In this document: positions 541 to 50,942 of the stretch, piece by piece
How positions within the stretch are numbered: position 1 is the first letter of the stretch
Layout: each line of letters opens with the position of its first letter
The notes under the pieces: model-generated
The model's database searches: none
Seen by the model: the letters and a program-made list of their open reading frames with translations, nothing else
Told to the model about the DNA's origin: nothing
Translations under genes and position numbers: made by a program
Source of the DNA: Halomicrobium zhouii
GTDB taxonomy: Archaea > Halobacteriota > Halobacteria > Halobacteriales > Haloarculaceae
Direction of reading: 5' to 3'
DNA length: 64,000 nt
Assembly: GCF_900114435.1 (NCBI RefSeq)
Contig: NZ_FOZK01000001.1
Coordinates: forward strand, 372,001 to 436,000

Positions 541-713
541 GGACGAAAAGGGCGAGGGGCGGCTGGCGGCGTAGCCGCCAGCTCATGCGACGGTCGGCGG
601 AGCCGACCGTCCGCTCCGGGAACCCGGGCGCCGCTAGCACCGAAGCGAAGGCAGTGAGCGAGGCGCGCAGCAAGCCCCGGACCGGAGCGCGGCGAGGGCT
701 TTCCTCTCTTTGG
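541..713. repeat. solo hairpin arm of the composite GAAAGGGCGAGG...CGAGGGCTTTC repeat family
   Basis: It begins with AAAGGGCGAGG and ends with GGCGAGGGCTTTC, like the arms of the composite elements near 16.5, 37.0 and 50.7 kb. Inside are nested inverted repeats (GGCTGGCGGC/GCCGCCAGC, GACGGTCGGC/GCCGACCGTC and CGCTCCGG/CCGGAGCG). This fills most of the 473-base gap between the antitoxin remnant and the surface protein; I see no gene there. Confidence 0.6.
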
Positions 714-16006: not shown

Positions 16007-16140
16007 GTTCTACCCGTCGCGTCGCGCGCGTAATAATCGTGTGGGATTTCTAATGGGTCGGCTCGGGATGGATTGGATCTGTCTGGGTGTGAGTCGAGTG
16101 AGTGGTACTGCGAATCGGCTGTCGAAAGACCGGAGCCAGC

Positions 16141-16645
16141 AACACCCAGAAAGCCCTCGGCCCGCTCGACTCGCGGGACTCGCTGCGCTCCTCGCTCCGC
16201 TGCGGTGCTTGCTTCGTCCGGCATCGTCGACCGTACCTCGCCCTTTCATTCCTCCAGGCCCAGCACAGCACCGCGGCCCTGCCCTTCCCCTGGTCGCGCG
16301 ATGAAACGCGCTCTCACGGCTTCGCCGTTCGAGCAACCGCGGTCGCTTCGCGCCCGCTCAGCTCCCGGCCGGGCGGTTGTGGAGCGGTCAGGAAGCGTGA
16401 CCCGGAGCGGACGCGACGGGTCCGGGGAGGGTTGGTGGTTCTAATCGTGAGCGCGTTTTATCGCGCGAGCGATGCGGAACCTGGAGGACTGAAAGGGCGA
16501 GGCGGGGTCGTCGAAGTCCGAACCCGCAAGCACGCGAGGAACGAGCGCGCGCAGCGGGTTCGCACGAGTCGAGCGCGCCGAGGGCTTTCGAGGTGTTTGT
16601 AGTCTCGATTCTCACTCAAGAGAGCGCGCCGAGGGCTTTCGAGGT
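16141..16645. repeat. composite inverted hairpin element, copy A
   Basis: Left arm 16141-16248 starts AACACCCAGAAAGCCCTCGG and ends CCTCGCCCTTTC. Right arm 16489-16598 starts CTGAAAGGGCGAGG and ends GCCGAGGGCTTTCGAGGTGT. The core between them carries recognisable modules: GGCCCTGCCCTTCCCCTGG, then CCCGGCCGGGCGGTTG, then GGAGCGGTCAGGAAGCGTG, then a GGGGAGG...TGGTGGTTCTAAT block. A second copy of the right terminus sits at 16622-16645. No ORF in the element looks coding. Confidence 0.75.
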
Positions 16646-32064: not shown

Positions 32065-32178
32065 AATGAAAGGGGCGGCCGTCTGGACTCCCGCGGCCAC
32101 AACTGCGCTCCTCGGCTTCGCCTGCGGTGCTCATTGGACCGGGGTTCGTCCAGACGGCCGGGGGCTTTCCTTTGTTGT
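32065..32178. repeat. solo arm of the composite hairpin repeat family
   Basis: Starts ATGAAAGGGGCGG and ends CCGGGGGCTTTCC. Perfect 12-bp inverted arms GGCCGTCTGGAC/GTCCAGACGGCC enclose the typical inner GCGCTCCTCGGCTTCGCCTG-like loop. It lies between tRNA-Pro and the SLC13 gene. Confidence 0.6.
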
Positions 32179-36503: not shown

Positions 36504-36693
36504 ATCTCCCCCATTTCATCGGCACACAAGAAACTATCTCCCGATTTCTCGGATATGAAATCTAGGCTAGTGGTCTGTACAGCGATCTGCTGCGAACGAT
36601 GGCGCGACATCGGTTCGACTGCTAATCGCCGACATTGAAGCTACAAATTGAGGAAATCCCTCGGCCCGGTTGCAAGCGTCTGGATAGGAACCG

Positions 36694-37098
36694 TAAACAC
36701 CTCGAAAGCCCTCGGTCCGCTCGACTCGCGGGACTCGCTGCGCTCCTCGCTCCGCTGCGGTGCTTGCTTCGTCCGGCATCGTCGACCGTACCTCGCCCTT
36801 TCAGTCCACCAGTGTCAGCATTGCTCGCGCCATGAAGGCGCTCGCGATTGGAACCACCACTCCTCCCCGAATTCGCGCCGTCCGGCGCGAATCACGCTTC
36901 CCGACCGCTCCGCAACTGCCCGGCCGGGAGCGCGTTTTATCGCGCGACCAGGGGAAGGGCAGGGCTGCGGTAGCGGGCCTGGCGGACTGAAAGGGCGAGG
37001 CGGGCTCCGGGAACCCGGGCGCAGTAAGCACCGCAACGCAGTGAGGAGCGCAGCAAGCCCCGGGACTGGAGCCCGCCGAGGGCTTTCCACTGTTTGCG
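36694..37098. repeat. composite inverted hairpin element, copy B (core inverted)
   Basis: The left arm (AAACACCTCGAAAGCCCTCGG to CCTCGCCCTTTC, 36694-36803) is nearly base-identical to copy A's left arm over about 85 bases. The core, however, is the reverse complement of the core in copies A and C (ATTGGAACCACCACTCCTCC first, CAGGGGAAGGGCAGGGCTG last). The right arm starts ACTGAAAGGGCGAGG and ends CCGAGGGCTTTCC, with GGCGGGCTCC/GGAGCCCGCC pairing. It fills most of the 36504-37205 gap. Confidence 0.75.
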
Positions 37099-50423: not shown

Positions 50424-50842
50424 AACAGCCAGAAAGCCCTCGGCGCGCTCCGGTCCCGCGGACCTCCTGTGCTCCTCGCTACGCTCCGGTGCTTGAAGGT
50501 CCGGGGTTCCCGGACCCCGCCTCGCCCTTTCATCCACCAGGCACAGCACCGCAGCCCTGCCCTTCCCCTGGTCGGCCGACGAGACGGCCTCCCGGCCGGG
50601 CGGTTGCGGAGCGGTCAGGAAGCGTGTCGCGCCGCCAGGCGCGACCGGGGAGGGGTGGCGGAGCCAATCGCGAGTGCGTGCCGAACGGAGTGAGGCAGCG
50701 CGAGCGACGGCTGTCCCTGGGGGACTGAAAGGGCGAGGTGGGGTCGCGCTGCAAGGCAGTCGCTCAGCGGGCCCTACCCGAACGCACGTGAGGGTATCCC
50801 GCTGAGCGACCGCGAGCCCGCCGAGGGCTTTCGAGGTGTTTA
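50424..50842. repeat. composite inverted hairpin element, copy C
   Basis: The left arm (CAGCCAGAAAGCCCTCGGCG to CCTCGCCCTTTC) has GGTCCGGGGTTC-type inner pairs. The core is in the same orientation as copy A (GCAGCCCTGCCCTTCCCCTG, CCCGGCCGGGCGGTTG, GGAGCGGTCAGGAAGCGTG, GAGGGGTGGCGGAGCCAATC). The right arm (GACTGAAAGGGCGAGG to GAGGGCTTTCGAGGTGTTTA) includes a perfect 13-bp hairpin GTCGCTCAGCGGG/CCCGCTGAGCGAC. It fills the 50263-50942 gap. Confidence 0.75.
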
Positions 50843-50942
50843 CGGTCGTGCTCACTCAGGTCGTTTCGGCCGTCACAGATCGATACGTAGCTCACTTGTA
50901 CTGAGCAAACATTACCACTCACTCCGAAAATCCGACGTCGAA

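Follow-up and report, generated by a model that had tools for sequence, protein, structure and literature searches.

Twin-hairpin elements of Halomicrobium zhouii are probably members of a non-autonomous mobile family found across the haloarchaeal class

The window analysed in this study is a 64,000-nucleotide stretch of Halomicrobium zhouii DNA (contig NZ_FOZK01000001.1, positions 372,001 to 436,000). It contains three composite elements and two solo arms, as reported in the initial annotation; a covariance model of 32 arms from the host and a close draft relative, G006 (model R1), matched exactly these eight arms, with E values from 2e-21 to 2e-6. Each arm is an imperfect hairpin of approximately 100 nt, and paired arms face outward from a variable core. 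The layout of the copies is regular: an outer end, 88 bp, an inner end, a core of about 190-260 bp, an inner end, 88 bp, and an outer end. The element size of about 430 bp given in the initial annotation is too small, as conserved sequence runs 65-75 bp beyond the arms, making about 500 bp. The two sides differ in these flanks: one has an A-type end and the other a B-type end, which terminates in CTGTACTGACC. Copy 1 has an A-type outer end that is kept among the copies (16084-16148, approximate limits), a left arm on the minus strand, whose functional strand reads outward (16149-16248; 109.1 bits, E 4.8e-21), a core of variable palindromic modules common to other copies (16249-16489), and a right arm on the plus strand (16490-16589; 96.8 bits, E 2e-18). 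It is followed on the plus strand by a 51-bp ladder unit (16590-16640) made of the outer flank and a repeated arm end CCGAGGGCTTTC (16629-16640). In the host and G006 together, 24 of 31 cases have the 51-bp spacing. Ladders of repeated outer ends lie at 16590-16640 and 36653-36703 in the window and at C1:240790-240903 and C2:413628-413740; they occur in the host and G006, and none was seen in the parts of the genomes G001 to G003 examined.

In copy 2, the B-type outer end (36572-36703) carries a terminal-repeat-like GGTCTGTACAG at 36572-36582 and a decayed 51-bp unit end GAAATCCCTCGG at 36653-36664. Its left arm (36704-36803, minus strand; 110.5 bits, E 2.4e-21) and right arm (36988-37087, plus strand; 107.6 bits) enclose a core (36804-36987) whose orientation is opposite to that of copy 1. 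Copy 3 has a left arm on the minus strand (50432-50532; 107.4 bits), a core (50533-50725), and a plus-strand right arm of another stem type with a perfect inner stem of 13 bp (50726-50832; 44.9 bits), which is 100% identical to the host arm at C1:600106. Its B-type outer end (50833-50906) terminates in TTGTACTGAGC, a local terminal variant common to the G006 orthologue, and the sequence inside it has been replaced. Core modules of one window copy do recur in the others, as had been described.

Both solo arms are present, and both needed correction. The arm noted at 541 (545-703, plus strand) bears a double-hairpin insert near its base, and model R1 matches 595-703 (40.8 bits). The arm noted at 32065 (32068-32170, assigned to the minus strand) has ends that read on the plus strand (TGAAAGGGGCGG...CCGGGGGCTTTC), and its interior, which is inverted relative to these ends, matches R1 on the minus strand (57.4 bits). 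Nested double-hairpin inserts of 47-65 bp were found inside arms at 545-610 of the window and at C1:164026, 240354, 534982, 807706 and other positions. They have GNA/TNC triloops and a linker that is constant within a type (e.g. TCATCA), and they look like separate tiny mobile repeats. The ORFs spanning the window elements (109-198 aa) have no match to any Pfam family, in agreement with the earlier view that no protein is encoded.

It had been noted that the inner inverted repeats differ between copies and stay self-complementary. This was confirmed in a genus alignment (A1), in which 97% of the pair cells are paired and 19 of the 31 base pairs supported in the arm structure have double-sided changes. 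In a class-wide alignment (A2), which was fitted to a covariance model, compensatory change was found in 25 of the 31 pairs, and none of 500 shuffles reached this number. Double-sided change affects 298 cells in A2; shuffles give 79 such cells and slid structures no more than 49, although these covariation counts overstate the independent events, many arms being related through gene conversion. Covariation thus rises rather than disappears as more copies are aligned, and the proposal of a structured family holds class-wide beyond both kinds of control. The GG/GG element, a lone C-G pair, a tandem G.A, the GAA/GA and AA/GCA internal loops, and a GNA triloop are fixed features. When single arms were folded with DNA parameters, z ranged from +1.1 to -4.5 relative to shuffles; since some arms fold no better than shuffled sequences, the structural case rests on covariation. 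Folding with RNA parameters gave a median z of -3.9 (73 arms).

At paired positions, G.T outnumbers A.C by 38 to 3 in the genus and by 45 to 7 class-wide, and G.T is still ahead once similar sequences are removed. These are column counts, in which G.T makes up just about 3% of all pairs; a 1x1-mismatch test on a Watson-Crick-only fold is confounded by one conserved A/C mismatch. The excess of G.T over A.C identifies the strand reading TGAAAGGG...GGGCTTTC as the selected one. All 16 arm pairs in 856 kb of the host face outward, with none inward and none on the same strand. The hairpin is thus shown to have a strongly constrained structure on one of its strands. Could the arms instead be functionless long palindromes of miniature elements (MITEs), whose self-complementarity is kept by palindrome correction through template switching in replication? 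Palindromes are indeed remodelled here, as seen from the perfect double-hairpin inserts and the inverted arm interior, and GNA/TNC triloops are common among the palindromes of the genome. However, such correction should erase mismatches, and the GG/GG, GA/GA, GAA/GA and AA/GCA loops persist class-wide while the stems change. Correction is also strand-neutral, which does not fit a G.T count far above that of A.C. I regard this explanation as quite unlikely.

Is the hairpin confined to the window? The 11-mer arm end CGAGGGCTTTC occurs 178 times in the 4.25-Mb host genome, compared with one occurrence of the reversed control; the catalogue of elements itself spans about 1.2 Mb, supplemented with genome-wide counts. 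Of 391 sampled haloarchaeal genomes, 329 have a covariance-model match, as do 75 of 86 genera, so the copies are clearly not restricted to this stretch of DNA. In a phylum-wide sample, 29 of 196 genomes match, and among the matches listed all are in the host's own order. A search with an exact pattern gave 120 matches, and among those listed all are haloarchaeal by title (Halosimplex, Halonotius, Halorussus, Haloparvum and others). No match to the element was found in phage records. Since about five-sixths of the sampled haloarchaeal genomes carry the hairpin, often in many copies, it looks like a widespread conserved structure of DNA or RNA, and it makes testable how selfish repeats hold a fold as their sequence changes.

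The mobility of the elements is best seen in the sister species. The elements of G001 and G003 end in GGTNGTGTTCAGATAAG, are mostly 312-430 bp long with terminal repeats of 13-17 bp, and are free of genes; in G001, a minimal twin copy measures 312 bp. In G001 to G003, 17 of 31 elements have a target duplication of 8 bp with at least 7 of 8 positions matching, compared with 0.66 in shuffled pairings. Empty sites were also found: G002 lacks two elements common to G001 and G003, and G003 lacks one G001 element. The same genus has IS6-type insertion sequences of about 689 bp (PF13610) with GTGTTCAGATAAG ends and perfect 8-bp target duplications. Thus, because they have the IS6-type terminal repeat and 8-bp target duplications, the elements of G001 and G003 are IS6-type MITEs. 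Judging from these ends, they would have been mobilised in trans by an IS6-type transposase. The earlier suggestion of mobility is borne out in the sister species by the empty sites, terminal repeats and target duplications. It did not foresee the IS6-type ends, nor the replacement and inversion in place and the plasmid module described below.

The situation differs in the host. The terminal repeat shared by MITE copies and autonomous IS6-type insertion sequences was found in G001 to G003, while the host copies carry GGTCAGTACAG, mainly at one end of a copy. Neither a target duplication nor an IS6-type end was detected in the host's own copies, and IS6 mobilisation is therefore not supported for them; the proposed comparison of insertion sites thus gave target duplications in G001 to G003 and none in the host. 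No partner insertion sequence for the GGTCAGTACAG end was found in the one-third of the host genome examined. The sole IS6-type (PF13610) match in the host lies at 775.5 kb of contig C1 and has slightly decayed terminal repeats without a target duplication; therefore, no obviously active IS6 source for the host copies was found.

Another possibility is that an HUH (Y1) transposase acts on the arms and that the whole is REPIN- or PATE-like, though giant. Such an origin would fit the arrangement of imperfect, strand-specific hairpins in inverted pairs on either side of a spacer, and Y1 transposases are encoded in six of the seven genomes of the genus. However, Y1 elements lack both terminal inverted repeats and target duplications, whereas the present elements show both, with duplications of 8 bp, and G002 has arms and no detected Y1 gene. 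This origin is very unlikely.

At the comparable composite-element sites of the host and G006, the element is present in both genomes. The flanks are about 94% identical and the arms are far more divergent. For each of the 17 arms tested, an arm from a different locus is a better match, with up to 100% identity, than either of the orthologous arms. For example, the window copy at 50.4 kb keeps the terminal variant common to G006, and its inside is that of the host element at C1:600106. This pattern suggests ectopic gene conversion between copies, which is more likely than replacement through re-insertion at the same base. At one site in G001 and G003, the arm-core-arm cassette is inverted between unchanged flanks (identity 0.82 inverted versus 0.59 forward). 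In G001, two pairs of elements have reciprocally swapped target duplications, which mark inversions of 15 kb (C1:317694/332929) and 194 kb (861418/1055364), and the latter agrees with a synteny break relative to G003. Recombination between element copies thus caused these two chromosome inversions. A rearrangement involving three elements was also seen in G001 (1686890/1699078/1776175). Measurable inversion of the chromosome and a rapid exchange between loci are both due to the copies.

The clean in-place inversion between outer arm ends in G001/G003 raises the idea that a cassette is flipped by site-specific recombination, with the arms as its attC-like or invertase sites, and the fixed bulges with variable stems do recall attC. 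However, flips are found within a single arm and between distant copies too, as ordinary homologous recombination gives, no integrase gene is linked to the elements, and attC core boxes are not evident. I consider this idea hardly tenable.

Taken together, the window copies are probably part of a family of non-autonomous mobile elements, spread across the haloarchaeal class, that have constrained hairpins and undergo insertion, content exchange and inversion. An element consists of a spacer or core with one or, as here, two outward imperfect hairpins of about 100 nt. Its movement in the sister species would depend on an IS6-type transposase acting in trans. After insertion, its contents are swapped at a fixed site with those of other copies, probably by ectopic gene conversion, and inserted elements also invert in place and recombine with one another, inverting segments of the chromosome. 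The hairpin may fold as single-stranded DNA and be bound by a protein of DNA replication, transfer or recombination. It counts against this explanation that the arms would be dispensable for an IS6 transposase.

When plasmid records were searched with a window copy, the hairpin was found in 60 haloarchaeal plasmids. In seven of eight plasmids inspected, the next gene, whose start lies about 450-560 bp away from the hairpin, encodes an OB-fold, RPA-like single-stranded DNA (ssDNA)-binding protein; the exception, H. salinarum R1 PHS2, has a PAS/GAF sensor gene next. The OB-fold protein resembles replication factor A models and an OB-fold structure, and this similarity is partial but significant. 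The non-coding DNA between hairpin and gene matches 170 records, 88 of which cover at least 80% of it, and the module alignments usually begin at the outer end of the hairpin. Some records have a TFIIB gene in place of the ssDNA-binding gene. In the plasmids, it is the template strand of the gene that forms the hairpin, and none of the plasmid copies inspected carries a hairpin annotation. The hairpin-initiated conserved non-coding module (L451:1790-2400) is found on haloarchaeal plasmids including pNRC100. From its position and conservation, the module is a candidate replication, transfer or early-expression region, and it offers a concrete entry to replication or transfer of haloarchaeal megaplasmids, pNRC100 among them.

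GNA triloops make very stable DNA mini-hairpins. Class-wide, the tips of the arms have GNA triloops in 98 of 256 loops, GNRA in six and UUCG in none. Since GNA triloops dominate the tips and the neighbouring plasmid gene encodes an ssDNA-binding protein, folded single-stranded DNA is favoured over RNA as the functional form, with about even confidence. The tip preference counts for less because host palindromes in general show GNA tips: among strong palindromes of host contig C1 (1-856 kb; 3-nt loop, stem of at least 9), 30 of 49 have C-GNA-G or C-TNC-G, the loop type of very stable DNA mini-hairpins.

Alternatively, the arm may be a structured RNA, and the element would then spread an RNA or mRNA-processing hairpin as the ERIC sequences of enterobacteria do. 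Covariation and one-strand tolerance of G.U are equally expected for RNA, and the host cores hold TA-rich CGCG-TTTTAT-CGCG motifs facing the arm. Among intergenic solo arms flanked by tandem genes, eight are co-directional with the genes and three opposite, but this bias is not significant; in gene context, the elements are depleted between divergent genes and otherwise ordinary. Paired arms lie on opposite strands, so that one read-through transcript would have just one arm in sense. The TA-rich cores are missing upstream of solo arms in other genera, GNRA and UUCG tips are not enriched, and the arms matched no curated covariance model of Rfam in either search. The RNA explanation is thus possible but rather doubtful. 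A separate idea, in which TTTTAT in the core is an outward promoter, fails for the solo arms of other genera.

A more specific proposal starts from an analogy. F-like plasmids have single-stranded promoters of the Frpo type ahead of ssb (PMC9849209). The plasmid copies resemble them in that a hairpin precedes an ssDNA-binding gene on plasmids of conjugative type, and here the template strand of that gene forms the hairpin; the analogy, drawn from position and strand alone, involves no sequence relation, and the transcription machinery here is archaeal. By this analogy, the hairpin might be an archaeal single-strand initiation or single-stranded-promoter site, native to a conjugative-type plasmid module before the ssDNA-binding gene, which was captured by MITEs and spread class-wide, the outward pairs giving one working arm per strand. 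I put this forward as a speculation that is unlikely to hold.

How do the elements compare with known repeats? IS6-family MITEs are known from haloarchaea, MITEHarch3 (ISfinder) among them, and the reviews list two IS6 MITEs, of 227 and 336 bp (PMC6807381, PMC7986276). Like the copies in G001 to G003, they are short and have an IS6-type terminal repeat, an 8-bp target duplication and no transposase gene. MITEHarch3 was compared with the present elements by description, not by sequence, and the host copies bear another terminal repeat. The general features of MITEs were all found in the sister species, namely short non-coding elements, terminal inverted repeats, target duplications and empty sites. 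The PATEs of Haloquadratum are derived from IS605-type elements and lack terminal inverted repeats and target duplications (PMC3119063). They are similar in being haloarchaeal, non-coding, of high copy number and palindromic near the ends; a PATE or IS605-type origin is ruled out by the terminal repeats and target duplications of the G001-G003 elements. The SMR-A repeats of Haloquadratum, about 110 bp with inverted ends, exist in many copies and are sited in palindromes of other elements (PMC3119063). The arms resemble them in length, inverted ends and copy number, but SMRs are separate inserted units whose terminal repeats are unrelated to transposons and which lack target duplication, whereas the arms are fixed parts of a larger element. 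SMR-A membership is ruled out by the IS6-type ends and target duplications of whole elements in G001 to G003, and the nested double hairpins are more SMR-like than the arms are.

In bacteria, REPIN/BIME, ERIC and BOX sequences are intergenic imperfect palindromes arranged as inverted pairs or modular units with variable internal repeats, and REPs are about 35 nt and tied to RAYT proteins. The haloarchaeal arms are similar in organisation, with no sequence relation seen. REPIN membership was rejected, as the foot of the arm is TGAAAGGGCGAG and not of GTAG type, and G002 has no Y1 match. A literature search with the element sequence gave chance matches only, one being an E. coli intrastrand-triplex motif, and the literature searched gave no account of the hairpin found across the class, of its twin arrangement, of the exchange dynamics or of the plasmid counterpart. 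Thus, the kind of element is known as IS6-type haloarchaeal MITEs, while these four features were not found described. In the draft assembly of G006, contigs C1, C3 and C6 start at most 160 bp from an element end (43, 45 and 156 bp, respectively), and the repeats appear to break this assembly.
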